Below, in pieces: positions 5,996 through 44,186 of a DNA stretch of 64,000 nt; position 1 is the stretch's first letter; each line of letters begins with the position of its first letter. The notes below the pieces were generated by a model, which was not told where the DNA came from, searched no databases, and saw only the letters and a list, made by a program, of their open reading frames with translations. Source of the stretch: Phaeodactylum tricornutum CCAP 1055/1. Lineage: Eukaryota > Bacillariophyta > Bacillariophyceae > Surirellales > Neidiaceae. A program made the translations under genes and the position numbers. The stretch spans positions 124,001 to 188,000 of the forward strand of contig NC_011689.1 in the NCBI RefSeq assembly GCF_000150955.2, written 5' to 3'.

Positions 5996-8900
5996 TTAAA
6001 CATCTTCCAACAAATCCGCCAGCGCTCGACTTGCTTCCTTTCGTACTTCCATATTTTCCCAATGGAGTTGTAGGGCATCCGCCATGGCGCTAAAGCCGCC
6101 CGCTTGCGCCAACGCCGTTAAACGATCTTCGTGATCCAGACATAAATTGGCGAAGGTCCCGCACGCGCTCGCTTGTACTCGTGGCTCGGTAGAATGCGTT
6201 CGCATTGCAGAGACCAACGAGACCATGCCACCCGTAGTGTCAATTGTCATGGCCCCCTGGGCGTTCCCACATGTTAAATTTTGCAGGGCCGACCAGGCCG
6301 CCTCCTGAACTGATACGTTGTTCAAATGACCCATCATGGCCGCTAGAATTGCTTCAACTCCGCCAACATCGCTGATGGCGCGTTCGTTCTCGATATCCAA
6401 TGCAAGCTTTTCTAAAGCCTGGCAAGCAGCTTTTTGAATCGGTGCGTGCGAAGAATGCGTCTCCATAGCCCGCACAATGGCCAGCAGGCCACCGGTCCGA
6501 GCAATTGTATCCCGGGCTCCTTCGTCGTGGAAGGCTTCGATTGTAATCCATTGAAGTGCTTCAAACACAACACCGGTTTCCGAACTCCATAAATCCTTGC
6601 GAATAACCTGAGATATTGACGGAGGCTTGAACTGCTTGGTGGATAAAAGCGTGGACAAACCCGATGCTAATGTAGCAGCCACTGTATCGGACTTGGGGGG
6701 CGATATGGTTTCTGATACGATTGGGGTGTTGATAGCGCTTGCAATTGTTTGAGAGGGTGTCAATCCTCCATTTTGTGGATACGAATGAGTATCGGATGGC
6801 GGGGTTTGCATGAGAGATGGTTTTACGGAGTCTGAAGCGGGAGAAGTTCCTTGGGACCCGCTCCTTTCCTGGCATGTCACACTCTGCAATGGACTCGATG
6901 GTGTTTCTCTGTCTGATGAAGATCGTTCCGGTTCTTTCGGAGAAGACAACTCGTCTGTTGATGCCGTGAGGATAACCGTCGGTTTTAGGGACGTTTCTCC
7001 AGTTAAGGTGGTGGCTTCCGATTCTACTGGACACACTACCGGCCTCTCATTGATTGCCCCTCCATGGGGCGTTTCCGATACAGGTATTATTGGTGGGGAT
7101 CTAGAGGGCGTGTCTTCGGATGATTTTGGAGATTCCGGCATTACTGGCGCAGGCGCAGATGCATCATGCGTTTCCGGTACTCCTATCGACGACTCTGCCG
7201 GAAAAGTGAGGATTTCTCCTGCTACTATGGCTGTTTCCGGTACTTTCAAGGGTATTGCAGCACCTTTTAGAGTTTCGGAGGCCGCCACTAGGGATTCCAC
7301 TGGGCAAGAAGCCGCTGCTCCGGCTGAATTGGCTGTTTTCGGAAGAGGCGATGACGATTTTGCCATCGGTGTTTCCGCGTCCGACGTTGACGACTCGGCT
7401 GGACTCAAAGGCAATTTCACTACTAACGGAGTGCTTTCTCGTAATGTTTCCAACGGCCGAACAAGTACGTTGGGCGTTGCCTCACACCCCATTAGGGATA
7501 CCAAGGGTGTCACCCCGACGGATACGGTAATTTCTGGTGCGGGTTTCGAAGGCGGTACATCTATGCTGGGCGTTTTTGAGTCTTTTTCGGGCGACTCTAA
7601 CGGACTCGAGCATGAATTACCTGATGATGGGCTAGTTTCCAGAATCGTCAAAGGCGCTGCCAATACACTGGTCGGCTCCGACTCCGCCACAGGTCTCGAA
7701 GGTCTTTCTTCTGTAAATGTGGATGCTTGCAGGACTATTTGTGCAGCCGATTGGCTAACTCCGTCCGACAAGGCTGTCGAGGACTTTGCTGCCGGACTCG
7801 ACAGCAGCTCTCCCACTGATGTATTTGTCTCTGATTCTGTCGACAATGGCACTGAAGATGAGTCGGTCGTTTCCGGTACCGCTTTTGGAGACGATTCCGG
7901 AGTCGAGAATGTTTCTTCGGCTGCTGCGGAGATGGTGGCTGCGTCCGGCACCGTCAGTAGCTGTTTGGGTACGGGAAGTCTTTCCGGAGCAGGAGATAGT
8001 TCTTCAGCCGTGTCCGAGCCGGTCGTGGTGGTCGTTGTTGGGCTGCACGGTGTGTCGTCCGAGGATGTCGTTGCTGCCGGTGAGACGGGTGGCCGTGGGG
8101 ACGAATCGGGCGTATCCGGTACCGTTTGGAAAGATTCTGCCGGGCTCTGGGGTGCTTCTTCAGCCAACAAGGTGGCGGTTGTTTGTGTCGGGAACGGCGG
8201 TCTAGGCACGCTTGACGATTCCGGGGATACTGTTAAAGACGCTTCTGGACTCGAGGAAGGTCCGCTGGCTTCGGTGGCGACTCCGGCAGCGGTGTTCGGT
8301 ACCGCCGGTGACGATTCGGGGAGATCATGGGATTCCGATACGCAAGAGTGCGTCGTTGTTGGGCTGCACGGTGTGTCGTCCGAGGATGTCGTTGCTGTCG
8401 GTGATACGGGTGTCCGTGGGGACGAATCGGGCGTCTCCGGTACCGTTCGGGAAGATTCTGCCGGACTCGAATCTGTTTCCACGGCGAGGGGGGAGGCTTG
8501 CACGGGCGTTTCCGGGGTCAACGAGGGTTCCGACACGTGGGAGGTTGTCGTCGACATGGCCTCGGTGGGGGTGCTGGGTCGCGGGGGCGATTCGCTGGGT
8601 CGCGACGATTCCGTAGCGAGAATGTATTCCGGCATGCGGTTGGTGTTTCGCAATCGCTTCAGCAGATCGGTATGCAGGTCCAACTGGAGCTTCGTCCGCA
8701 AGGGCCCGCTTGGTTGTCGGGCTGGAAGACCCCCGTGGGGAACTTCCGAGACGTCGCCGAGATCGGATACGGCGGTTTCGACGGCGGGAATGTCCGTGGT
8801 GGATCCACCGGGCGTGAACGTCCGGAACAGACGGGGTTCCGAGTCGCTGCTGTCGATGCGATGGGGAGTTGTGTGGAGTGCGGTGTGTGGATTGTCGAGC

Positions 8901-9982
8901 AGAGCTGAGGAGGGTTCGAGGATGACGGAGCTGTTCGTGCTGCTTGTGTTTTCTTCTGGTGTGGCAACGTGACGCTGAATGGGAGAGTGGGCTGGGTTCG
9001 TCGTGGAGGAACTGTCGTCGCGGATACCAAGGATACTATTGTCGTCCTCTCCCGGCTCGTTGTTGTCATTGTCGTCGTCGTCTTCGGTGGTGGTGGTGGT
9101 GACGCGTTCGGTAGTTTCTTCTCGCCGTTTGGGTGAATTGTCGATCCTGTCGTGATTGTGAATAGAAATGATACTGCTGTCGTCGTCGTTGCTGTTGCTG
9201 TGGTCGTTGTGGTTGCTATGAGTGTCGTCATGGTGATCGCGTTGTTCGTCGGATGACACGGGAGACGACGGTTCGCTGTTCTTGTTCTGGTTGTTGTTGT
9301 TGTTGTTACTGTCGTTCGGGTGCGTACCGGAGTTACCATTGTTGTGGTTGGTGCCGTTGCTTGGACTGGTACTGCCGCCATCCTTCTCCTTCTTACTATC
9401 CTCAGTGTGTTGAGGTTGACTAGTGTCGTGGTTGCGAGGCAGCGGGTTTTCCTTGGCGACGACAGAATCGGCACGCGGAGATCCGACACTACTTTTGGAC
9501 GTGAATGGTTCCAAGACGGCCTTGACGGCCGGTCGAAAGCTGGACGTGTCGGCCGGAGCCGTTTCCACCGCCGCGGCGGCCGCGGCAGCGGCGCGAGACT
9601 TTTTGGAAGCGAAAAAGTTCATGCCCTTGCGACGCCGACGACCCATTCGCGGACTCGTCGTCGTACCGTTGCTACTGTCGTCGTCGTGTTCGTCGTTGCT
9701 ACTGCTATTGTCGTTGCGGAAGTGTGGAACGTTCCCGTACGGGTATTCGTGCGATGCGTCGTCCCCAAGTTGGTCGTCGGCTGCGCATTCCCTGTTGCGG
9801 TCAATGTCGGTAGTCCCGTCACGGTCGCTAGTATTGCTAGTGCTAACGTTGATGCTGTTGTTGTAGTTGTTGTCGAAGGACGTGTTGGGGTACTCGTACA
9901 AGAACTGGGTGGATTGTTTGGGGGGAGAGTCCAGGAGCGGTGCGAAACAACCACACGCCGTGGTAACAACGACCGGAAGCAT
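5996..9982 (-). CDS. Giant Ser/Pro/Thr-rich protein with C-terminal armadillo repeats
   Basis: A single exon of 1328 residues starting at the ATG at 9982. The first 1,080 residues are low-complexity and probably disordered: an Asn/Asp/His-rich part near the N-terminus (runs of N, D and T, plus an Ala run after KKSRAAAA), then a very long Ser/Pro/Thr/Glu section built of degenerate units such as VPETPDSSPR and TTSSDDTPCSP. The last about 220 residues form four armadillo-type units (GGVEAILAAM, QEAAWSALQNLTCG, GGMVSLVSAM, QASACGTFANLCLD). ARM repeats bind protein partners; the long arm could be a phosphorylated tether. The C-terminal part resembles the ARM proteins expanded in diatoms. There is no catalytic motif. 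The function is unknown, and the opposite strand is open for 720 codons, which I treat as a compositional shadow. Confidence 0.85.
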   Translation of the reverse strand: MLPVVVTTACGCFAPLLDSPPKQSTQFLYEYPNTSFDNNYNNSINVSTSNTSDRDGTTDIDRNRECAADDQLGDDASHEYPYGNVPHFRNDNSSSNDEHDDDSSNGTTTSPRMGRRRRKGMNFFASKKSRAAAAAAAAVETAPADTSSFRPAVKAVLEPFTSKSSVGSPRADSVVAKENPLPRNHDTSQPQHTEDSKKEKDGGSTSPSNGTNHNNGNSGTHPNDSNNNNNNQNKNSEPSSPVSSDEQRDHHDDTHSNHNDHSNSNDDDSSIISIHNHDRIDNSPKRREETTERVTTTTTEDDDDNDNNEPGEDDNSILGIRDDSSSTTNPAHSPIQRHVATPEENTSSTNSSVILEPSSALLDNPHTALHTTPHRIDSSDSEPRLFRTFTPGGSTTDIPAVETAVSDLGDVSEVPHGGLPARQPSGPLRTKLQLDLHTDLLKRLRNTNRMPEYILATESSRPSESPPRPSTPTEAMSTTTSHVSEPSLTPETPVQASPLAVETDSSPAESSRTVPETPDSSPRTPVSPTATTSSDDTPCSPTTTHSCVSESHDLPESSPAVPNTAAGVATEASGPSSSPEASLTVSPESSSVPRPPFPTQTTATLLAEEAPQSPAESFQTVPDTPDSSPRPPVSPAATTSSDDTPCSPTTTTTTGSDTAEELSPAPERLPVPKQLLTVPDAATISAAAEETFSTPESSPKAVPETTDSSSVPLSTESETNTSVGELLSSPAAKSSTALSDGVSQSAAQIVLQASTFTEERPSRPVAESEPTSVLAAPLTILETSPSSGNSCSSPLESPEKDSKTPSIDVPPSKPAPEITVSVGVTPLVSLMGCEATPNVLVRPLETLRESTPLVVKLPLSPAESSTSDAETPMAKSSSPLPKTANSAGAAASCPVESLVAASETLKGAAIPLKVPETAIVAGEILTFPAESSIGVPETHDASAPAPVMPESPKSSEDTPSRSPPIIPVSETPHGGAINERPVVCPVESEATTLTGETSLKPTVILTASTDELSSPKEPERSSSDRETPSSPLQSVTCQERSGSQGTSPASDSVKPSLMQTPPSDTHSYPQNGGLTPSQTIASAINTPIVSETISPPKSDTVAATLASGLSTLLSTKQFKPPSISQVIRKDLWSSETGVVFEALQWITIEAFHDEGARDTIARTGGLLAIVRAMETHSSHAPIQKAACQALEKLALDIENERAISDVGGVEAILAAMMGHLNNVSVQEAAWSALQNLTCGNAQGAMTIDTTGGMVSLVSAMRTHSTEPRVQASACGTFANLCLDHEDRLTALAQAGGFSAMADALQLHWENMEVRKEASRALADLLEDV
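8041..8472. repeat. In-frame direct repeat inside the Ser/Pro/Thr-rich region
   Basis: A stretch of about 110 bp beginning GGCTGCACGGTGTGTCGTCC at 8041 recurs with few changes from 8362. The offset of 321 bp is exactly 107 codons, so the duplication keeps the reading frame and shows how the arm grows. Confidence 0.8.
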
Positions 9983-10055
9983 ATACTACTACTACTACCA
10001 CTACTACTATCGTATCCGCGCGATTGGGGCGAGAGTCGTTCGGTAGGAGTGCGAA

Positions 10056-10068
10056 GGGGGGGGGGGGG
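10056..10068. repeat. Poly-G tract (13 G)
   Basis: A homopolymer of 13 G on the plus strand, within the divergent promoter region. It could form a quadruplex only together with nearby G runs; length error in assembly is possible. Confidence 0.8.
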
Positions 10069-10256
10069 TCTCCTCCTACCCTACACCTGTTTGGTTCGTG
10101 TGTACGGAAGAACCCTAGCTAGTAGGAGCAGCAGCAGTAGAAAGTAGGAGTGCGTACTCTAGCTAGTAGGAATAGGAATAGGATAGGTACCCTCTCCCCT
10201 CCCTACCGACTCACTATATAACCACGCCTCACGCACTGACTACCTCTCAACCAACC

Positions 10257-10280
10257 TATGTATGTATGTATGTATGTATG
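10257..10280. repeat. (TATG)6 microsatellite
   Basis: Six perfect tetranucleotide units in the divergent intergenic region. Confidence 0.85.
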
Positions 10281-11055
10281 GCCTCGATCGATCGTTCCGG
10301 TACTGTGATTTCCTCAACGACTCTAGAAATTGCGCCGGACGGGCTTGGCTCTCTCCATCGACTGAAACGTTTGGGAACGGCACGAGTATTTAAGACGATG
10401 GATTCGCTAGCGTCCCACAACGTGCCGTTACCCTACCTCCCTCTAGTTACAGACATGGGCACGCAGGCTGGCTACTGGCGAGGCTGTCGGCGAAACGGGA
10501 AATCACGCACGAATGTCCGGTCGTTGGTCGAACGAGACATTTCGATCGTGGTTGGTTGGGAGGGGGCGGTGGAATGGAATGGATCGTACGGGACCCCCCT
10601 CCCCACCCGCGGGACGGTGCCACCCCTAGAGGGACCAACACGTGTGTCGTCCTACGTCACAGGACACGCAACAACGACACATTCCCTCGAAACGAATGAC
10701 CGGACCGTGCGGCGCCCGGTTCACTACCCAAACTCGTTCGCTCGCTCGGACGGACTCGAACGATTCCCAAACGGTGCTTCCAGTTACGGTACTCGTGTGG
10801 GTAAGCGTATTTGTATGTTTGTAAGTGTGTATAGAGATAGGTACGTGTGTGTGTAAGAGTGTGGGTGTGTATGTACATTACCCACCATCGGATGGATCGA
10901 TCCGTCCATCCCCACTCCCTACACACGTTCCTTCCGCACACACTAGTAGTTCACCAAACCCTCCCTTCCTCTGTTCTCTCCGTTGGGTCTCTGTCTCGAG
11001 TTGTTGGTAATCCAGTACTCGTGTGTGGTCGCTGGTAGTAAGTAGGGACTCCAAA

Positions 11056-14000
11056 ATGTCGGGTTCCCCCACGTCCCGGACTCCGGGACGCACCGGAGCC
11101 GGAGCCGGCGTCCGACAGCGATCCAACCACAACCACAATAATAACAATAACGGTAACAGTCAACCGGGACGATCCTCACGCAACCACAACGACACGCGTC
11201 GAAACGCGTCCCGATCCAACAACAACAACAACAACAGTAGCCGACACCGCCACAAAGGGTCATCCAACCCATCTTCCGACGGGACGCAGTTGCTGCGTGA
11301 CGAGGTACGTCGCGTGGACCAGCCACGAGTGTCAAAGGACACGGTAGGCACACACATATACACTCACACACACACACACACCCAACAACAACAACCACAA
11401 TAATCCATTGCAGGATGTTCTCATTGCCTTTATGCCGTACCTCAAAGACAGTCATTCGGAAGCGGCACGAATACACCAAGCGTACCAGTCGGGCAGTGAT
11501 CAGCGGGCCTTTCTGCAAGCGGCACGGGCCTTTTTGGAACGACAACGTCGCACTGCTCCGTCCGTAGCACCACCAGCGGCAACACCGGAACCAGCACCAG
11601 CACCCACCACGTTGCCGGCGACCAGTGCCGACGCTACGCTCTTCCCTCATCCGCCCCTTCTCCAACCGACCCCCTCGGCAATGGACCAGTCTCCATCCGA
11701 TGTCCACACCATGCTGTTTGGACCCACCAGTGTGTCGCAGCATTCTCTCTTTTCCCCGTTACACCCGACGCAAACCGAATACCGTCCCGAAGCCCTCGAA
11801 GCGCGAGGACTCGATGAAGCCTCCCGTAGCCAACGTCTACCACCGCCCGTGCCCACCAATCGTCCCAACCCTCCACACACGCACCACCACCTCAACAACA
11901 ACAATAATACACTCTCCATGCGCTCTTTAGAACAAGGACTGCACGACCTTTTGAATGATGAGCCCGTGGCGTCTCTACCCGTACAGGGAGCATCCATCTG
12001 GGGTGCCACTCCGGTGGACAGAATACCCCACGGTCCTCCGCCTCCGGTGACTCCGCCCCGAACAGACCCGCTCCCGTCCCACGCGTACCCCTATAACACG
12101 GTGCAGTCGACTGCGACTCCCTGGTCCAGTCCCTCCCGTACCCCAATCCCACCGGGATTGGCTCCGGTCTTCTTGGCTCCCACTCCGTCCCCGGCGGTAC
12201 CGCAAACCGCTGCCGATCCCCCCAGACAACAAACACCGAAACTGTCCGAAGTCCCACCCAAGACCGCCAAAAAGGAAGCGCCCCCTCCGAAACGCTGCTG
12301 GACGTATTTTCACGAGCAGCCCGGTCGTTTGAACGTGGACGGAACATCCGGAGAAGACTCGAGCGTCGTTTTGCCTCTGGCTCCCCGCTCGGAATTGACG
12401 GCCCACTGGACGTTGCCCTTGACCTACTTGCGCCAGTACGCACTAGAACATTTGGGTCCCCGCGTAGGCTTGGAAAAAGTCCTGGCCGGACTCTCTGTGG
12501 GTCTCTTTCGACGGGGCTGCACCGAAAACGGCTCCCAGGCGTCAATCATTTCCAAATGCGTCCTCGGTGAGAACAACCGCACCTACAAATTCTGGAAGGA
12601 CGCCGCATCCGAGTCCGTCCACGGAAAAGTCCCCTTTTACTCTCCCCGGACGCCCGGTCACGTCATACTCCGTATGTACTGGGACAAGAATCCCCTCTAC
12701 ACATTGGCCATGGGGCCCACGCTGCTGGTCCGGGTCACCGAAAACGAATTTGACGGCAGCGTCCGCTTTATCCTCAGCAACTTCAAGGCCAAAAAATCGA
12801 ATCCGACGTCTTTGTCCTCGCTCCACTCGTTGGCGTCGGTACTGGAGACGCCTTTGAGTCGACCGAACGAGTCGGCGGCTCGCGCAACGTGGGGTTGCGT
12901 GCAAGAGGCCCGCAAAGTCCTGGACGCTTGCGCGGCGGAATACGCCAAAACCAGTGCCAAACTCTCCACGTTGGAAGAGACCGTGGACGAACTCAAGAAG
13001 CGTGTGGAGGCCGAGGAAACTTCCTCGCCGAGTGATCGTTCTCTTACGGACGGCGAAAGCCGCGACGGGGCGGATCCGCAGCTCGACTCGGATCTTACTT
13101 TGGACTTGCGGGAAAAGACCAAGACCTTGATGGGTGGACGGGCCTCCTGTGAACGCAAATGGAGAGATTCCCAATTGGCCTTTGCCAGTATCCTCCGCGC
13201 CGTCGTGAGCAATTCCACCCTGTCCGTACTACTGCGTCGGGACTTGATTACGAAAATGCGGATCGAATACGAACTCTGGTGTCCCCTGTCGGAAGAATTT
13301 GCCATTCCCAGTGACACGGCCAAAATGTGGTACGAGCCACTGAAGGATCTGCCACACACCATCACAGCGGACGATTTTCGTTTCTACGCGCAAGTACGCA
13401 CGAAAATGCAAATGCGGACTCTGGGGTTCGACCCCAATCTCGTTTCCCTCGAAGATATTCTTTTCCCGCCCATTCGCGGCAAGACCAAGCAGAGAGTCAT
13501 GGATGCGGGCGCGGTTGGCGTTTTCAACAACGTGTCCGCGGCCATGGGTCAATACTTTCAAAATCTCTACATGGACGAGGACCGTATCGTGCGTCAAAGA
13601 CAGATGATACAAGAACGTACCCAGCACTGTGTTGAGGAGTGCGCCGCCTTCCCGCTGGGGACCAAGGTAGTCATCTTTGGTTCGTCGGCGAACGGTTTCG
13701 GATCTCCCAAATCAGACCTGGACATGTGCTTACAACTTCCCGAGGGCTCCAGATTGAACCACGAAGCAGGTGGGGAAGCCATGGCAAAATTGGCGCAGTA
13801 CTTGGACACTTTTGGCATGAAGAGTGTGGATACGGCTCGTCTTACCGCTCGTATTCCCATCGTCATGTTTCAATGTCCCAACCCCATGTCCACAGGAAAC
13901 GGTGAGGACGATCTAATTGAGTGCGATCTGTCCATGCACAATACTCTGGCCGTTCTGAATACGGCACTCTTGCGGACCTATGCGGAAATTACTCCCGTCA

Positions 14001-16484: not shown

Positions 16485-17681
16485 GACGGGAAGACACCTA
16501 CCTATCTGTACAATAGAGCCGAAACCGGACCGTTTGTGTTCGTCACTTTGAACGCGCGACGTTAGCACTAATCGATGGTGGTAAGGTAGTGAAGTCGAGA
16601 TGTTAGGCGCGGTTGATTGATTGATTAGTGGTGATTTGGGACTACGAGGCACCACAAGTACTAATTGTGAGGCATTTTCATTTTGTGTTTTGGTGTTGAT
16701 AATTCCATTGGGCCTACTTAGTCTTTCCCAATCCGTTGTGACAAGATTGATATTCTCCTAATCCGCTGTGACAAGATGGATGGTCACCAAGAACCTATCA
16801 GGGTTACATACAGACCTTTAACGTCTTACGAACGTTCTGGTCTTCCCGTTTAGATTTCAAACAAGTCATCGCCATATGAAAGAGTCATTGGCGATTTCGC
16901 TGCATCATACAAACACAATCACGATTCTCAAACTAGTCATAGATCTTATTAGTTCATCGATTTCCATCCTTCGCGTTCTTGCGTTTGTAGCGCTCATCAA
17001 CATTTGCCCCGAGTCCACGCCGGGAATACGGATACGTTCGGCTGAGGGCACACGAGAAGTACACACGAGCCAGTCAGCCTAGTTTCCTTTTGCAGGGATC
17101 TAAATGGATTTTTCGAATCATGGGTAGGCCAACTGACTTTCACTGGGAGCGATGCAATTGACAAAAAGAGCGAGTCATACCAAACGTATTTTCGGGAATG
17201 ACTTTTTGTGAATTCGTTCGAACCTAGAATCGAGGGGACTTACGGTTTGATTTATGCGCGCCGACGCTCGTCGCCTACGGCAATGTGAGTAGCTTGGGCT
17301 TGTTCGGTCCTCGCTAGCACAGCCCACCCATAAGCGTACCATCAAAGGGAAGGCCACATCTGCGAGTTTTCTATATTTGTTAGTGTTCTCTTAGGAAGAA
17401 GACTAACGCCAGACATCAGAGTATCTACGGTGTCTACCTGCTACCCTACCCTCTATACTCCAGTAGGATAGGTTCCTACTGGTCGGTGTGCTCGGCCCCG
17501 AAATCAATTGGGAAAGTTGTCGAGACTGTGCGGCATCGTTCTGCGATTCCTGTCGTCATGCGTCCTGTTTGGGAAAATCTTCCACAGCTCGCTCCTTTGC
17601 ACCGTTTAGGATTTTTGGGTGAACACTTTTGTTCGTGTTTTGTGTCCCGTGTGTAGTCGTGCCTCGCGTCACGTCACCGTG
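16485..17681. promoter_or_regulatory. Shared divergent promoter of two glycosyltransferase genes
   Basis: 1.2 kb between two outward-facing glycosyltransferase genes. It contains an imperfect tandem repeat, AATCCGTTGTGACAAGAT at 16730 and a near copy at 16760 (period 30). No supportable gene is present. Confidence 0.5.
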
Positions 17682-19142
17682 ATGTTCCGCACGAGTATCC
17701 TGTCACGGCGTCGCGGAGTGGTCCCGAGAACGTCGTCGAAGTTTGCCGGTCTCGCGGGGTACGCCTTGGTCACGCTGTTGGTGTTGTGGTGTGCGAGCCA
17801 AGAGACCGTCGACGATCTCCGAGGATACCGCGTCCCCGACGTGCCTCACGACCCCAACACACTATCGTCGACGGACACACCGCCGCTGTCGTCCTTCACG
17901 GACCATTCCGAGAGGACGATTCCCACGGTAGCCTACGCCGTTTCCTTAATCAAATGTGGCGATCGCCACAACAACGCCGACGGATTGTCGGACGCCGCCG
18001 CTGTCCTACGGCACTCGATCCATCGACATTCCGTACGGGACTCGGCCAGTGCCAGTAGGTACGACTACAAAATGTACGCCATTGTGCACGAGCAAGCGAC
18101 CGAGTGCGCGGACCCATTCCACCAGTTGGGTTTTGAGGTTTTGGTCCGCGCGCCTCCCGTACAGACCCACGAAATTCGGAACGAATACTTGCGCACACAC
18201 ATACACCGCGAGGTGTGCTGCGGTGCCGACGAATTCGTCAAACTGTACGCGTACCAAATTACCGAGCACCCCGTCGTGGTCCACGTCGATATCGATTTCG
18301 TCCTCCACCGACCCTTGGATGATTTGTTTGACGTCTTGATTAACAACGACTCGGCTGCCCAGGCGCGGGTGGACCGGGAGTTTCCGGATACACCCTGGCC
18401 CGCCCGCACGGACGCCTTTATGACGCGCGATTGGTCGCAAGTTATACCGGGACGCAAGCCGGGATATCAAGCGGGATTTATTGCACACAAACCCGACCCA
18501 GTAGTGTTTGAGGAACTCGTGCACGTTATCAAGACGGCTAATTACACGGAAGGATTCGGAAGGGGCAATGGTTGGGGTGGTCTGGGCTACGGAACTTTTG
18601 TCGGAGCCATGGCCATGCAAGGACTGTTGGCTTACTACTACGACATCAAGCATCCTGATCGCTGGGTTGAACTCAACCAATGCAGGCACAACCACATGGG
18701 TATGGATATTCGCTTCCGGGGTCCACCGGGATTTCGAGCCAACCATCCAAATAAAGGAAAATGTCGAAACAATCGAGAAACATGTGAAGATTGTATGTAC
18801 ACTGATCCGGACGAAATCTACAGTATTCACTTTTCACCGTGTCGGAAGCCTTGGAATTGCGTGGGGGAGTCGGCACGGCGAGGAAGCGGCTTTTTACCGG
18901 AAGGCGTAGTGGATCCCCCGCACTGTCGCCAACTCTTGCGTATTTGGCACGACTTACGAACGGACTTGGAGCAGAAGCTTCACACATTGACGGCGGACGA
19001 AACGATTCGACGGGGTCAAACTGGTACATTCATGCCGGACACTTTTATGGGACACTGCAATGGCCATGGACCTGAGCATTACTTGAGCTTGTCGGGAACT
19101 CCCGAAACCTTGGTCCAAATTCCCAATCTTTACCAAAAGTAA
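17682..19142 (+). CDS. Glycosyltransferase with nucleotide-diphospho-sugar fold, type II membrane protein
   Basis: A single exon of 486 residues from the first ATG at 17682; a GTG lies 63 nt upstream in frame. A signal anchor (AGLAGYALVTLLVLWCAS, residues 22-39) is followed by a catalytic domain with HPVVVHVDIDFVLHRPLDDL (DxD at D203/D205), RKPGYQAGFIAHKPD and GRGNGWGGLGYGTF. These resemble GT8/GT32-like transferases. Six or more Cys follow in a DIRFRGPPG...CMYTDPDEIYSIHF region, likely disulfide-bonded in a lumenal domain; the core DPDEIYSIHFSPC block probably closes the active site. It shares an intergenic region with the GT8-like gene on the other strand, which hints at co-regulated glycan work, though the two proteins are only distantly alike. 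Confidence 0.82.
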   Translation: MFRTSILSRRRGVVPRTSSKFAGLAGYALVTLLVLWCASQETVDDLRGYRVPDVPHDPNTLSSTDTPPLSSFTDHSERTIPTVAYAVSLIKCGDRHNNADGLSDAAAVLRHSIHRHSVRDSASASRYDYKMYAIVHEQATECADPFHQLGFEVLVRAPPVQTHEIRNEYLRTHIHREVCCGADEFVKLYAYQITEHPVVVHVDIDFVLHRPLDDLFDVLINNDSAAQARVDREFPDTPWPARTDAFMTRDWSQVIPGRKPGYQAGFIAHKPDPVVFEELVHVIKTANYTEGFGRGNGWGGLGYGTFVGAMAMQGLLAYYYDIKHPDRWVELNQCRHNHMGMDIRFRGPPGFRANHPNKGKCRNNRETCEDCMYTDPDEIYSIHFSPCRKPWNCVGESARRGSGFLPEGVVDPPHCRQLLRIWHDLRTDLEQKLHTLTADETIRRGQTGTFMPDTFMGHCNGHGPEHYLSLSGTPETLVQIPNLYQK

Positions 19143-19431: not shown

Positions 19432-22252
19432 TCAGAAATCATTGAATCGAGTTCCAACTGTTTTGAAGAGACAGTTCATTGAGAAGTCGGGAGCGCAGGT
19501 GGAGATACGGCGGTCCAACTCATCACCGTGTTCGTGGCTGCTCGCCAAATGCTCGAGTTGACGGTCGGTGAGGTCGGGTACGACCTCCTTGAGATGACGC
19601 TTGCGATCATCCATATCGGCATATCCGGCTTCCAGGCGACGGCTCACCGTCTGGGCCGACGCGACCCACTGGTTAATGGAGACGAAGCTACCAACGGAAG
19701 CATCAAGATCGGCGCAGACAATTTTGGCGCGACGAGCCATTTCTTCGTAGACTGTAATGTCACGGTAGAGCTGAAGGCGAGTAAAATCGGCCTCCGTATA
19801 CCCAGATCCATAGAAAGAGACAATGTTTTCCGCACCAGCTCCACGGAATCCAAAGTTGTAGGTAGTGGTACGAATACCAAGAACATCGCGAAAGAAGGAC
19901 GAAACGAACCCTTCCTGAATGCCGAGATAGGGAGCTTTGTACTGTAACCAGGCGTAAGCGCCAGCTTTCGCGTTGGTGACGTCAAGGACCGGGCAATTCT
20001 CGAACCCTGAAATAACTGCGTTCCACTTTTCGTCCATGATTTCAGTGTAAGCTCCAACCCAGGACGTGGGGTCGGAGATGGGTCGGGACATAATCATCTC
20101 CCAGAGTTGCATCTGGCCGTACCAGCTCCATTCAGAATAGAGACCATTGGTCATGCTGTGCAAGGATTCAAAAGCGTTCACAACGGCATCATGGCTTGTC
20201 ACTGGCTCTTCCTTATATACGACAAACCCAGCGCGGACGCTGGCAGAGTATCCCTTAGTGATCGAGAAAGACCACGACGCACAGTCTGGACGGTCTCCCG
20301 TGGGTACTTCATATCCCTGTGGTTGACAAAAAAGAAGCGTAAGCCAAGCACCAATCATAGCAACGACAAGAGAGTCCAATCCACGTACAGTCATTCCAAA
20401 ATACATTGGCCAGACGTAGACACCGTCACAAACACGGCGGTTGGAGTCGGCAATCTGAGGGGTCTTCAATTTCCCAGTTGGGTTTTCGGGCCAAACCATG
20501 CTTTCGAACCAGGGCGAGTTGGGGGAGTCGGAGTTTGCAGGGTACATAACGCCGTCCGCTCCCATCTCCTCGGGGAATGGAGTCAACGGAAGCCAGCCAC
20601 GAACAGTAATAGTGATGGTTTTGTCATTGCAAGTAGTCGCGTTTGCGTTGAAGCAAGCACACTCTTCGCCGTTGTAGAACGTGTCAGAGAACTGGTTGGC
20701 AATGGCTGCTGAGTCGCTGGGAGCGTATGAGTAGGCAGGGACTTCCTGCAGAACGTAAATATCACGAGTACAAGTGGTGCGAGCAATCTCGAGCGCCTGA
20801 TTTTTAACGAAATCAAGGTCAGTGAAAGGATCTTTGAGAAGAATGCACCCAAAAAGCGACCAGACTTACCTTGGCAGCCCAAAGACCGACCATTCCAGAT
20901 TCGGCCCCTTCTGTCATGGTAGTATCATAGTCCACCAGTTCGCCCTCTGTAAAAGCACCCAAGTAGGCCAAGAAGTCTTTAGCCATGGCGCGAGCATCAG
21001 CACTGTCATCAAATGCATCTTCGACGTCCACGCCGACGTCGTATGCTGGATACGGTCCGCGGTTGAAGGGGAAGGAAACGACGGGATTCAGTCTGTTTCA
21101 GAAAAGCGTGTGGATGTTATCGTTAGACAACTGAATTCGGCTACGTTTATAGACCGATTTGGGCAATCGGCAAAGACTTTTGGAACTTACCCGGTTCGCT
21201 TGTTGAGTTCAAATTTGTCCAACGGATCTCCCCAAAGAATCCAATAGGTACGGTTTTCGGTAGAAAAACCTGTTTCAACACAGGAAGTTCCGTCCCAAGC
21301 CAAGGGGTACTGGGCGGCCAAGGCACCTTCTTCATCCAACATACCCTGAGAGTCTTGGGCACATGGGAAGTATCCCTTTTCTCCGACACAACCTTCGTAG
21401 CCCCCGTAAACACTGGGATGATGCTTCCAGTAGAGGGACTCGGGAGGGCAAGTTTCAAAATCTCCGGACTGAGATTCACGCATGACGATTTCGTCGGATG
21501 TGGCGTCAGTGTAGATTTCGACTTCAATGGGAACCAGTTCACACTCGGCCGTAGTATCCTGAGCAGTTGCGGTGGGGGCGTTAGCCAAGAATCCACCCAG
21601 AGCGGAAGCCGCCGCCACGGTGGTGGCGGGTAGGCCGGCTCCCATACCGAACATGACGGGCAAAGCAAATCCAAGCGTCGAGGTCATGTAAGACGCGGCG
21701 GAACCTTCGGCGTCGGTTGGGGCGGGGGCGGGAACCGCAGGGTCACCACCACTACCAGAGTCACCACAGAGTTCTCCAGCCGTGACGGTGAGAACACCAT
21801 CCTGCTCTTCCACAAGTGGAGCACGCCCGTAACTCTTGAAGACTACCTTATTACCTTGGGTAGAGTCGCTTACACTGCATCGTGAGAGGTACATTCGAGT
21901 GAGATTTACTGTTACTTGCTTTTCATTGTCAGAGAATAGATCCAATGGGGATGGGACAGATTTGGGAAATACTAAACAGACGTTTCCACCACGCTCGCAG
22001 TTCTGCTCACACTGTCAAACGCCAAAAGGCTGTGAAGCCAACCCTCGCATCCAAAGATTCATTCAACCGATTCATTCGTTCAAAGAAAAACAAGACAACG
22101 CAATGGCTAACTTACCGAGTGACGGTGGGAATGAACCCACTGAAAGCCAAACGAGTGTTGGCTCCAATGTCCATCTCCATCATATCGGTACACTGAGCCT
22201 GTGCGCCCCAGGCCATGGTCGCCGCCAGGAAGGCGGAAGCGGAAATCTTCAT
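19432..22252 (-). CDS. Secreted alliinase/TAA1-like PLP aminotransferase with a novel N-terminal module
   Basis: Five exons by my reading: 22252-22116, 21874-21191, 21092-20870, 20796-20389 and 20316-19432, all with GTAAGT or GTACGT donors and CAG acceptors, giving 778 residues. A signal peptide (MKISASAFLAATMAWGAQA) opens the protein. Residues 21-88 form a beta-rich module also found in the divergent neighbour, then come a Pro-rich linker, an Ala/Gly-rich hydrophobic stretch (105-145) and TATAQD. The enzyme part matches the alliinase / tryptophan aminotransferase family: WGDPL, TEGAESGMVGL, WPENPTGK, CDGVYVWPMYFG, and SITKGYSASVRAG with the PLP lysine at K505 and a conserved Arg seven residues on; KAGAYAWLQYK stands at the usual C-terminal substrate site. 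These enzymes transaminate or lyse amino acids. The substrate is unknown. The last intron is 72 nt, in frame and stop-free, so an intron-retaining isoform is conceivable. Confidence 0.85.
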
Positions 22253-23313
22253 GAGAATGTTGGAGTGAAAATATATCTTTTTTTCCGTGCCAGACAAAAG
22301 CGTTACCGGAAAAAGAAAATTATGAGACGAAAACGTGGAATTCGGGGACGTGGAAATCTTTTTGGTGTCAAAGGTACATATTCTACACATGCCTACCTGG
22401 CGGTGAGATACTTACAGGGATTCCGCCGGATCAGAGAGCTGATGCCCGGATGGAGGAGCGAAAACATGAATTGTCGCCATAGCGGCGGATAGTGTGCCGC
22501 TACAGTCAACGAAAAAGGTTGTGTGCACCGAGAATTGTAGCGTATGCCAATGCGAGGGGGATCAAATGCCGCACCGTATCTGGGAATTCGGAGGCAGAAT
22601 TGTTCCACACTTCCCTCACCGGTTTGGGAAGATTTGTACGAATATGAAGTTCGGAGGAAACGTAAACGACGAGTACGAAGGTTGGACTTCTATGTGATCA
22701 TTTCTATTTATGGGGCTATGATCGATATATTTTTTTCTTTCTGTCATATTAATGTCTTTCATACATCTTTGTCGATAGTACCAACTCGAGAGCGAACAAT
22801 TTCAGATCCTGACTGTTCCCAGTATGTGTTCCACGACGTTCCCAAAAAAATGCCTGGTCCATATTTCCTCATGATATCCAACTTTTTCTTCTGTAAAAGG
22901 ATGAGGAAGTTGAATTGGACTAGAGAAAGGGGACCTTGTTGGATGCAACAACTTCCTCCTTCCAAGTTGGCATTTGATGGAACATGTAGCTTTTCCGTAC
23001 ATTGCTACACGCTAGGAGCTAGCTTATTGACACCATCGGATTTATAAATAGGTACAAGCTTTGATCCAGACAGAATTCTAGAAGCCGTTTCTCTGGTAGT
23101 GCAGCTGCTCGGGTTGGCGATGACAGCGTAGAAAGCAAGGAGCAACCAGCTCAGTTCGGTTTCGGAATCTTCAACCGATCTTGTGAAGTGCGACGCGCAC
23201 CAAGAAAAACTTTCTCTGATCCGTTCATAGTTTCGCAACTGTCAAATCTGGTGGACCGTTGCCGCTCAAACACCTCGACACGCATCCATACTTTCCTACC
23301 AACTCACAGTACC
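22253..23313. promoter_or_regulatory. Shared divergent promoter of the aminotransferase / amine oxidase pair
   Basis: 1.06 kb between the two starts, with no supportable gene. It contains CTACAGTCAACG near 22499 and ACTCACAGTACC immediately before the amine oxidase ATG, both related to the motif seen upstream of other genes, and an AT-rich TTTATAAATAGG near 23040. Co-regulation of the pair is inference. Confidence 0.55.
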
Positions 23314-26114
23314 ATGAAGTTCAGCCTCGCCACTCTTTCTTCCTTGACTTTACTGGTGGCTCCTTGGGCAGTAGCTGCCGCCAGTGCAGCTTGTCCCTAC
23401 CTCGAAGCCGCCGCTCCGGTGGAGTACGAGTTGCCCGCTTCGGCGTTGACGAATCCGTTGGTGGATCTTCCCGTCAAGTTTGTGGGTGTCAAGTCCGTGA
23501 TAACGCGCAGTCAGGTTCCGTTCGGATCCAAGCCTCGAGTCGTTGTCCAGCGTTATTCCTCCAAGCCAACCATTGCCTACGATCCCACGGATGGTTCCGT
23601 GACCATTTCTTCGGCCGCCTGCAGCGGAGGTGTATCATCGGAGGAGGGCTCGGGTGCAACTTCGTCCACCAAGAACAGTCTGATGACCATGGCCTCCACC
23701 TTGGCCATGTACGCCCTGGGTGGAGAGATCGGGGCCGGACTCGCCTTGGCGGGTGCCGCTCTCACTAACTTGCCGACGGCCCATGCGCAAGACGAATCCT
23801 GCATGCCTTCGGTGGAAGTGATGGTGGAAGCCCCAGCGGCATACCGTGGTGCGGTGGAGACTTGTTTGGCCGAAGTTACCGATCAGTCTCAGTGTCCCCT
23901 ACCCTTTCCGACCTTCCCCACGTGCTCCACACCGTCCCCAACGTGTGGGGTCGCGGTAGTGGGTGCCGGTGCCGGTGGTTTGTACACGGCGTTGCGGTAC
24001 GTTCATCGATGCCCTAAAAATGCTCCGTGATATAATTTAAAGGCCGTCCAATCGCTAACGCTCTTTTTCCTCCAAAATTGGCACAGAATGGTGGATGAAA
24101 GGGCCATTGAAGCGTCCGATGTCTGCATCTTTGAAACGACCGAGCGCGTGGGAGGACGTTTGTTCAGTCTCCGTGGGCTCGGTCCGGACAACGATCTTTC
24201 CGTAGATGCCGGTGGTTACCGAACGGTACGTAGTAGCATGGGAACGCGCTGACGCCCGCGTCAGGGTTTTTGGTTCACGGTTCTGACAACACGATTCCTA
24301 ATTATTTGTGTTCTTTTCGTCGCTTGTGCTTTTCCACAGTGGCCCGAGTTCACCCCAACCCTACACGCCCTCATTACCGAGTATCTCAACATTCCCATGG
24401 ACTGCTACGATCCCTCCGAAGTCCCGTGCCAGAAGTTCAACATTGTGGACGAAAACGGGAATAAAGCTGGCTTTGCCACCTTTGTGGAAGAAATGATGCG
24501 CCGTCTGACGGATGCAGGAGCCTGTTTTTACCCCTTCCACGAAGTCCGCTCCTTGGCCAAGATCGAGGCGCCTTCCGATACCGCCACGGCCCGCAATGCC
24601 GACGGGACGGCCACGGAGCTCCACTTTACCAATGGCGCCACAGCCGTGGCTACCTTCACTACAATCCTGGGTGTCCCGCAACGCCCGCTGTTGAACATTC
24701 TTCGTAACTCCAACTTTGCCAACTCGATCATGACCGCCGCCAAGTGGGACGCTGTGCATTCCGTGCAAACCGTCATTGCCTCCAAGCTTTACCTCTACTA
24801 CCCGCGTGGACAAGTGTTCTGGCGCAAATTGAACCTCGGCGCGGGAGACTTTGAATTGGACGGTGATGCCCGTAATATGCTGTTGGCCGGTCGTTATCAC
24901 GGTGCGTGTGGCAAATCGTGCCTGAGCTGTGCCAAAGATTATTGGTCTCACCGTCTCACACCCTAACCTTGTGGCGCATTTCTCTAGATGGACACGTCGA
25001 GTGCGAAGATGAAAACGATCCGGATACATGTCGCGGGTTCTTGCTCGCAGTCTACGCGAACGACTTGTCCGGTAACAAGGCTCAGTTCTTCCGTCGTTAC
25101 CAACGTGACCGCCCCGAGCCGGTAACCATTCTCAGCAACTCGGATTTGGAAAGTGCGGAATTCCTCAAACACGCCCACGCCCAGCTCGAGCAATATCACT
25201 TGTACGAAAATCCAGGGGCCAACTACACCGGTTCTGAAGCACTGGCGGCTTTCCGCAATGTCAATCCTCCAGAGTTTGCCGTCCTGAGCACCTGGAATGA
25301 AGCTGTACCGTGGGCGGGTGGTGCCTGGCACGCCTGGACCGACATCGACAACATTGATTTGGCCCAGAAACCACTGGCGGACTCCAACATCTTTGTCGTC
25401 AATGAAGCTTTCTCCCTTCTTCATGGCTGGGCAGAGGGTTCCATCAAACTTGCCGATTCCATCCTCGAGGACTACTTTAATATTGCACGTCCCTGGAACT
25501 TTGAAGTTAGTGATTTCGTCCAGTTCGTCCAACAGACCAACTCTCGCGAATGTGTCGAAGGTGAGGGTGGAAGTAGTGGAGGAGGTACAGATGGCGGTTC
25601 TTCCGGAGGCGGTGGAGGAGACACTTCTGGTGGAGGAGGTGGGGCTAGTAATCCAGCTCTTTGTTTCACCGAAGACGCGCTTGTGACCATGGCCGACGGT
25701 TCCCTGAAACGCATTGTTGATGTACAACTAGGTGACCGCGTTGTCACCGGAACGGGCAAAGGCAATGGCTTGGTCACCGAAAAATTGATTCATCCCGTTA
25801 AAAAGACTGTCCCTGTGGCGATCCTTGCTACCAAGGACGGCGACTTGACTGGAACCCCTGAGCATCCTATCTACCATCAAGGTGAATGGATTGAGATGGG
25901 CGACCTCACGAGTGACCTGCTGACTCTGACCGAGGCTCACGTGGAGGCGTTCTACAACCTTGAAATTGATGGCGATCAAGCTGGCACAAGCTCGCATTCG
26001 TATGTTGTGAACGGTATTGTCGCTTCCGGTTTGGGAGACAACGAAGACTTGAACAAGCTCTCTCCACGACAGAAGATCTGGAAGGATGAGGTGATTGATG
26101 TGATCTCTCAGTAA
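23314..26114 (+). CDS. Secreted flavin amine oxidase with a C-terminal Hedgehog-type Hint domain
   Basis: Four exons (23314-23996, 24087-24225, 24340-24901, 24988-26114) give 836 residues. A signal peptide ends near ASA-A at 26. Residues 27-110 match the beta module of the divergent aminotransferase; an Ala/Gly-rich hydrophobic stretch and TAHAQD (155-160) follow. The oxidase starts with the FAD-binding VVGAGAGG (217-222) and ERVGGRLFSLRG and closes with NIFVVNEAFSLLHGWAEG, as in L-amino-acid and polyamine oxidases. A Gly/Ser linker (about 654-684) leads to a Hint domain: CFTEDALVTMADG with the nucleophile C687, LGDRVV, TPEHPIY with H754, and HSYVVNGIVASG near 798-809. All key Hint residues are present, so self-cleavage of the C-terminus is likely. 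There is no sterol-recognition extension after it. The substrate is unknown. Confidence 0.87.
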
Positions 26115-43908: not shown

Positions 43909-44060
43909 ATGAAAAACTTACCTATACATTGACTCAAAGTCCATATCAACAACCCTTACGGGTTAGTCGGCGAGTTTCAAGGATGAAAAACTTACCTATA
44001 CATTGACTCAAAGTCCATATCAACAACCCTTACGGGTTAGTCGGCGAGTTTCAAGGATGA
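43909..44060. repeat. 74-bp tandem duplication
   Basis: Two identical copies (43909-43982 and 43983-44056), each beginning ATGAAAAACTTACCTATACA and ending GTTTCAAGG, plus the first four bases of a third. They are perfect at the base level, so recent. Not CRISPR: there are no spacers. Confidence 0.95.
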
Positions 44061-44186
44061 ATCAACGGAAGGTCATTTCGTTCGTGCAACTCCACTTTTT
44101 CCAGACGGGCGGTCGGTCCGCGTGATGTCGACAATCGACGAGCCATCACGATTTGTTTTGGAAATGGTAGCCGGTTCCTTCATATC

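Follow-up and report, generated by a model that had tools for sequence, protein, structure and literature searches.

The analysed window comprises 64,000 nucleotides (bases 124001-188000 of contig C21 of the 27,450,724-base, 88-contig genome of Phaeodactylum tricornutum) and contains two divergent genes, which code for an oxidase (OX) and a protein that we refer to as the transferase (AT). OX is located on the plus strand in four exons (23314-23996, 24087-24225, 24340-24901 and 24988-26114; 836 amino acids) and AT on the minus strand in five (22252-22116, 21874-21191, 21092-20870, 20796-20389 and 20316-19432; 778 amino acids). The last intron of AT is in frame, and a reading of 802 amino acids, 24 residues longer, is open as well. 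In the public protein P0001, introns 1 and 2 of OX are spliced identically and intron 3 is read through. These exon models confirm the coordinates and the head-to-head arrangement of the original prediction. In OX, exon 1 extends from the N-terminal module into the first part of the enzyme; in AT the Cys domain is split by an intron, and exon 2 continues without interruption from this domain into the enzyme part. Since module and enzyme start are joined within single exons, the shared N-terminus is part of both enzymes, as had been assumed. The features of both genes are summarized in Table 1.

Table 1. Features of the oxidase (OX) and transferase (AT) genes, with positions in the window.
Feature	Position	Strand	Basis
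OX SP1, the first signal peptide (residues 1-25), predicted to end in ASA	23314..23388	+	translation, by eye
OX two-Cys module, C27 to C103	23392..23622	+	alignment and profile tests
OX pair of hydrophobic stretches joined by loop GGE, end AHA; inner signal-peptide-like segment	23677..23787	+	module alignment
OX predicted inner cleavage	between 23787 and 23788	+	AxA alignment, hydropathy
OX invariant Cys and VEVMVEAP strand, directly past the inner site	23800..23835	+	Cys in 24/24 modules
OX core of FAD amine/L-amino-acid oxidase type, with three introns; borders approximate	23944..25499	+	Pfam, solved structures
OX C-terminal Hint (Vint) domain, to the stop; T-P-E-H motif	25662..26114	+	PF14623, 7.1e-9
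OX presumed catalytic Cys codon of the Hint domain	25662-25664	+	conserved Cys
Shared region between the divergent OX and AT start codons	22253..23313	.	1,061 bp, from gene coordinates
AT first signal peptide (SP1), MKISASAFLAATMAWGAQA	22196..22252	-	translation, by eye
AT two-Cys module, C21 to C82, intron 21875-22115 inside	21766..22195	-	profile 24.4 bits, 0/500 shuffles
AT hydrophobic, inner signal-peptide-like segment, end PTATA; predicted cleavage after 21562	21562..21693	-	module alignment
AT invariant Cys and PIEVEIY strand	21511..21543	-	alignment
AT alliinase/TAA1-like PLP enzyme core (likely), last two exons	19432..20796	-	PF04864, 5e-4, below cut-off; motifs by eye
AT putative PLP Lys in SFSITKGYSASVRAGF	20256-20254	-	motif by eye

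Some further properties of the window were recorded on the way. The adjoining open reading frame at 17619-19142 on the plus strand (507 amino acids) has a hydrophobic stretch near its start and resembles a Golgi-type glycosyltransferase by eye only. A 74-base unit is repeated in 2.1 copies with 100% identity at 43909-44061, and the interval 8001-10000 shows a strong strand bias (GC skew 0.219, AT skew -0.287), the signs of which flip in 10001-12000.

The catalytic core of OX matches the Pfam families NAD_binding_8 (4.3e-6) and Amino_oxidase (1.3e-6), and its best solved relatives are an amine oxidoreductase (8jt7, 6.5e-19), an L-lysine oxidase (7eii, 1.5e-16) and an ancestral L-amino acid oxidase (7c4k, 1.1e-7); the FAD motifs were read by eye. 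By sequence, OX is an L-amino-acid-oxidase-like FAD enzyme, with the activity predicted accordingly from its relatives. The original assignment as a FAD amine oxidase stands as far as the FAD oxidase is concerned, but has to be corrected in that the closest relatives are L-amino-acid and L-lysine oxidases and in that the protein ends in a Vint/Hint domain. This domain, which sits behind a Gly-rich linker, reaches 36.1 bits against Vint (PF14623, cut-off 27) and is the sole Vint match of the genome at E 0.1; the hedgehog Hint family PF01079 remains at 21.2 bits, below its cut-off of 29.7. When the covering rows among 60 listed OX homologs are counted, the Cys is present in 55/55, the His in 53/53 and the Thr in 47/53, and Vint was also found in OX homologs of diatoms and pelagophytes. 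An excerpt of the Pleurosigma genome paper gives Hint domains in over 290 genes, and 112 for Seminavis robusta (PMC12803021). Going by these two counts, genes fused to Hint domains may be frequent in certain diatoms.

The enzyme part of AT is less clear. It matches Alliinase_C (PF04864) at 5e-4 with 19.5 bits, below the cut-off of 22, and an NPTG motif as well as the Lys motif can be recognized by eye; the comparison with solved structures in the PDB gave no meaningful match. The predicted membership in the alliinase/TAA1 group of PLP enzymes is likely from this Pfam match and the motifs. Alliinase itself is a C-S lyase. AT would act on a C-N bond if it is an aminotransferase and would not if it is a C-S lyase, and the latter case would break the nitrogen theme discussed below.

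The signal peptide, the Cys-containing stretch, the hydrophobic segment and the AxA site that had been described for both proteins are present, and secretion is predicted for both. A genome search with the front of OX led to two amidases that begin alike, AM1 on contig C29 and AM2 on C6. In addition, a consensus query that returned four carriers and missed AT pointed weakly (E 0.113) to an acetamidase/formamidase (FMD) on C14, which has the module layout on reading. In contig coordinates, AT occupies 143432-146252 and OX 147314-150114 of C21, AM1 occupies 253483-256290 of C29, AM2 runs upward from 254282 on C6, and FMD runs downward from about 501429 on C14. The direct alignment of the OX and AT N-termini was upheld in part: compared over the whole N-terminus, the two reach 11.8 bits (best shuffle 10.0, score reached by 0/497), whereas the Cys domain alone is marginal with 2.4 bits, a score reached by 5/467 reported shuffles out of 500 made. 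The Cys domains of OX and AM2 are also only weakly similar in this pairwise comparison (5.9 bits; 2/466 shuffles reach the score). Profiles give a clearer picture. In leave-one-out profiles OX scored 47.8, AT 27.4, AM1 58.1 and AM2 62.5 bits, all above every reported shuffle; for AT, where the profile included the two amidase modules, 0/497 reported shuffles reached the score and the best had 9.5 bits. The strongest test is a profile built from 19 OX homologs of other origin, because none of the five carriers is contained in it. It gave 135.2 bits for OX, 52.9 for AM1, 49.8 for AM2, 31.5 for FMD and 24.4 for AT, and none of 500 shuffles per carrier came up to these values (best overall 8.5, best for AT 7.2). 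The shared N-terminal module thus holds and extends to five carriers. The idea that it belongs to no described family is in line with the Pfam searches, in which no family overlapped the module in OX, AT, P0002, P0003, P0014, P0025 or P0028, and the literature search found nothing on it. A protein search with the OX module alone returned one protein, the OX copy, among the matches listed, and a search with the AM1 module alone returned one protein, AM1's own copy.

The enzymes behind the three additional modules were assigned by family. AM1 and AM2 match the amidase signature family (PF01425) with 1.7e-30 and 2.7e-32, and the best solved relative of AM1 is GatA. K378, S450/S451 and S474, which we take to be the Lys, cis-Ser and nucleophile Ser of the amidase triad, are invariant in AM1, AM2, GatA and a FAAH-like protein. 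For AM1 we adopted a start Met at which a public copy also begins; the open frame extends a further 45 residues upstream. FMD has two matches to PF03069 on C14 (65.9 and 27.8 bits, cut-off 27). Its module scores 19.0 bits after removal of a predicted intron and 13.9 bits when this intron is retained; the best of 1,000 shuffles reached 8.7 and 9.3 bits, respectively. No in-frame ATG was found for FMD, and all that is visible of its SP1 is a hydrophobic region ahead of the first Cys. By eye, the intron positions of AT and FMD differ. Altogether the genome has four PF01425 loci and three FmdA-family loci; of the latter, one is a strong match and the other two are distant ones. The module-free paralogs found in both amide families are the FAAH-like amidase, GatA, an acetamidase with a plain signal peptide and an FmdA without one; the plain signal peptide of the acetamidase ends in VSA followed by QT, at the point where FMD reads VHS followed by QT. 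One amidase query of viral contigs found no relative.

The five carriers therefore represent four unrelated enzyme families: OX, AT, AM1 together with AM2, and FMD. A two-enzyme system restricted to the head-to-head pair, as first envisaged, does not agree with the same module being present on three more enzymes on contigs C29, C6 and C14. The underlying theme of amino-acid nitrogen fared better, as OX, AM1, AM2 and FMD would all act on C-N bonds according to their families, and the fifth carrier, AT, may do so. We also considered that this theme is accidental and that the module is a general secretory or wall-targeting leader of diatoms, of which the five carriers are merely the detectable ones. 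The way the genome was searched leaves room for this, because single sequences were used as queries and diverged carriers may have been missed; AT and FMD themselves were missed or barely found by several queries, and five carriers is a lower bound for the same reason. The AT module alone found only AT, and AT was not among the matches of the OX module. Further consensus queries returned all five carriers in one case and four, with AT missed, in another, and nothing else below E 1. On the other hand, four of the five carriers belong to families that act on C-N bonds, the fifth may do so, and eight module queries of the genome produced no accepted sixth carrier; we regard an accidental theme as unlikely. 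Three weak matches were rejected as carriers: L004 on C1 (E 0.372) and L018 on C3 (E 1.37), whose listed ORFs are without the module layout, and L017 on C19 (E 0.199), which in addition has one stop inside. L038 on C22 (E 1.41) was left out of the carrier set with its ORFs unread.

The upstream regions of the five carriers were compared by k-mers. Their common words exceed a first-order shuffle control, and one 9-mer occurs in 4/5 regions (control 0). These words are purine/pyrimidine runs, with the exception of ACTTCCTCA, which is found in 3/5 regions. As a signal of co-regulation the common words were set aside, since they are above the first-order control but mostly of low complexity.

A protein search with the OX core yielded at least 64 proteins, including OX's own copy. 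The listed relatives include sequences from Nitzschia, Seminavis, Cylindrotheca, Pseudo-nitzschia and Ditylum as well as from the pelagophytes Chrysophaeum and Aureoumbra. A profile of four modules matches 19/63 of the other listed relatives at E <=1.7e-10, with the next match at 0.088, and many of the remaining ones are fragments. For the alignment (A4), 60 rows were kept, with P0060, P0063, P0064 and P0065 left out of the 64, and the tree was calculated from 57 cores with at least 300 core residues, in which P0001 was replaced by the window protein. Rows were labelled as module-less by a length rule (14 rows, among them P0027, which looks truncated), and 25 rows stayed ungrouped. One clade of 39 rows (support 99/93) combines 17 module rows and 21 ungrouped rows with P0027 as the one apparent exception. 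Outside this clade are 13 module-less rows and the module row P0028, and the labels need three changes on the tree. As the module carrier P0028 branches apart from the clade of diatom oxidases, the module may have been gained more than once. P0028 is a module-bearing oxidase-Hint protein with an amidase-like strand, CDAVMEVEIH, past the inner site. In P0034, P0040 and P0041, which share a tree clade with the pelagophyte sequences, Cys-rich repeats replace the module; they look ShKT-like by eye, and Pfam gave no such match.

The most conserved parts of the module are its cysteines and the inner AxA site. The first Cys is present in 23/23 covering rows, the Cys closing the domain in 16/24 in its own column and in 24/24 within about two columns, and the Cys past AxA in all 24 modules. 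Two conserved Cys residues and an identical position ahead of several unrelated catalytic domains would also fit a classical pro-domain, an inhibitor or folding helper that is removed by any protease and followed by a hydrophobic segment that serves as a buried linker outside the membrane. It is hard to see how a pro-domain adapted to a single fold could serve four different ones, and the segment itself has the layout of a signal peptide, equivalent to the signal peptides of two relatives described below, which makes this explanation quite improbable. A strict [AV]xA is found in 22/23 modules, 2-8 residues ahead of the invariant Cys, compared with a shuffle expectation of 6.3, in rows that are related and not independent. 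This count is without P0027 and P0028 (which has AQA); P0028 is included in the 24 modules used for hydropathy and Cys counts. FMD has VxS (VHS) at the inner site in place of [AV]xA. The residues on either side of the predicted inner cut are AHA and QDES in OX, ATA and QDTT in AT, VEA and QLD in AM1, AFA and HGDS in AM2, and VHS and QTND in FMD. The second cleavage that had been suspected at AxA is likely on this basis, as a prediction.

Aligned at AxA, the 24 modules show on average two hydrophobic stretches, at -7..-18 and -25..-36, which are separated by a polar dip at -19..-24 with 17 K/R and 8 D/E over the 24 rows. K/R occurs in the dip in 13/24 rows and is missing in 11/24, including OX, AT, AM1 and AM2. 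Each stretch has on average only about 12 strongly hydrophobic positions, and together with the 11 rows without a K/R in the loop this means that a hairpin is not certain. The stretch nearer to AxA, at -7..-18, together with small residues at -3/-1 has the layout of a signal peptide and thereby of a predicted signal-peptidase substrate site. Furthermore, P0044 and P0054, two oxidase relatives without the module, start with plain signal peptides ending by eye in ARA before QSC and AYA before QQC, and the same strand follows. The long hydrophobic start of P0044 is perhaps a hairpin cut short, similar to P0027. The equivalence of the inner segment to a signal peptide is weaker for that reason, as only two such relatives are available and one is perhaps truncated.

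The two stretches of the averaged profile could likewise belong to a segment that is never cleaved and serves as a membrane anchor. The carriers would then be ectoenzymes tethered to the plasma membrane, and the Cys domain would face outward as a spacer or wall contact. This reading has to explain why AxA is kept in 22/23 modules while the remaining segment varies, and why the position of AxA matches the plain signal peptides of P0054 and of the possibly truncated P0044; we consider an uncleaved anchor somewhat doubtful. Of the features described so far, the Hint domain, the likeness to L-amino acid oxidases, the layout with two stretches and an internal signal peptide, and the module on oxidase homologs of other diatoms were absent from the original prediction.

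The shared front on five enzymes suggests an export unit for organic-nitrogen scavenging. In detail, we assume with a probability of roughly one half that the module is a portable diatom export unit of nitrogen-releasing ectoenzymes, in which an inner cleavage would free the enzyme. The precursors would then be built in the order SP1, extracytoplasmic two-Cys domain, helix A, short polar loop, helix B, AxA, Cys with the VEVE strand, and enzyme. Helix B and AxA would be the enzyme's own signal peptide, which is now internal; most simply, an enzyme that retained this peptide would have acquired SP1, Cys domain and helix A ahead of it. SP1 would take the Cys domain into the ER lumen and then be cut off, the domain would fold there, and helices A and B would form a hairpin in the membrane. 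Signal peptidase would cut at AxA and free the enzyme into the secretory pathway; without this cut the enzyme would remain tethered. The Cys domain would stay on the hairpin, where it might have a chaperone, sorting or anchoring function. The five enzymes are predicted to act outside the cell on organic nitrogen, mainly when nitrogen is short, and in OX a further Hint reaction at the Cys encoded by 25662-25664 might cut or modify the end of the oxidase.

A more far-reaching version can be put forward only tentatively. A two-signal export cassette might have evolved in diatoms, and gene fusions might have distributed it over at least four unrelated catalytic folds for the release of ammonium from organic nitrogen. 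The carriers would then be small polyproteins with two signal-peptidase cuts each, which yield a free enzyme and a Cys domain that remains in the membrane. In OX, a third reaction at the C-terminus, driven by the Hint domain, may either cleave the oxidase or attach it to a lipid or another nucleophile, so that a lipid-anchored ectoenzyme could result.

Diatoms use dissolved organic nitrogen. An extracellular L-amino acid oxidase of nitrogen-deprived P. tricornutum was reportedly described by Rees and Allison in 2006. Reports of L-amino acid oxidases on the surface of phytoplankton go back to at least 1990 (cited in PMC7780933), and an early increase in the transcript of a 'periplasmic L-amino acid oxidase' on nitrogen starvation is described in PMC8811913. 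The gene numbers of OX or AT were not found in the expression papers, and the literature search found no account of how surface L-amino acid oxidases are delivered or held. For FMD, the three FmdA-family loci of the genome imply that it should be one of the two that are strongly induced, if both counts are complete. In this context, OX is a candidate gene for this extracellular oxidase; with 29 further Amino_oxidase matches elsewhere in the genome, the activity may also belong to another gene. The shared leader can be used as a sequence tag for a candidate set of organic-nitrogen enzymes and provides a short list for knock-outs. Furthermore, the module offers a testable case of an internal signal peptide in ordinary cellular genes, and the fusion of oxidase and Hint domain, which homologs from diatoms and pelagophytes share, is another peculiarity that can be tested.

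Compared with known systems, OX resembles the extracellular L-amino acid oxidase of P. tricornutum in its core close to L-amino-acid and L-lysine oxidases, its predicted secretion and the nitrogen context. It differs in its fusion to the new module at the N-terminus and to a Hint domain at the C-terminus, and no link between gene and activity was found. The Hint domain of OX shares with the autoprocessing domains of the Hint/Vint type (PF14623, hedgehog PF01079) a Cys followed by Phe and a TxxH motif, with Cys and His invariant, but is attached to a FAD oxidase. The catalytic domains of AM1, AM2 and FMD are members of PF01425 and of the FmdA/AmdA family PF03069, from which the carriers differ by the module in front. 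For the module itself, a parallel in layout comes from viruses: in polyproteins of the flavivirus E-NS1 type, two-helix hairpins end in a signal-peptidase site. The order of lumenal domain, helix, short loop, helix, signal-peptidase site and lumenal domain is the same as that predicted here, a likeness of layout only. In contrast to the viral polyproteins, the carriers are cellular genes, and their second product would be an enzyme that apparently has its own ancestral signal peptide.
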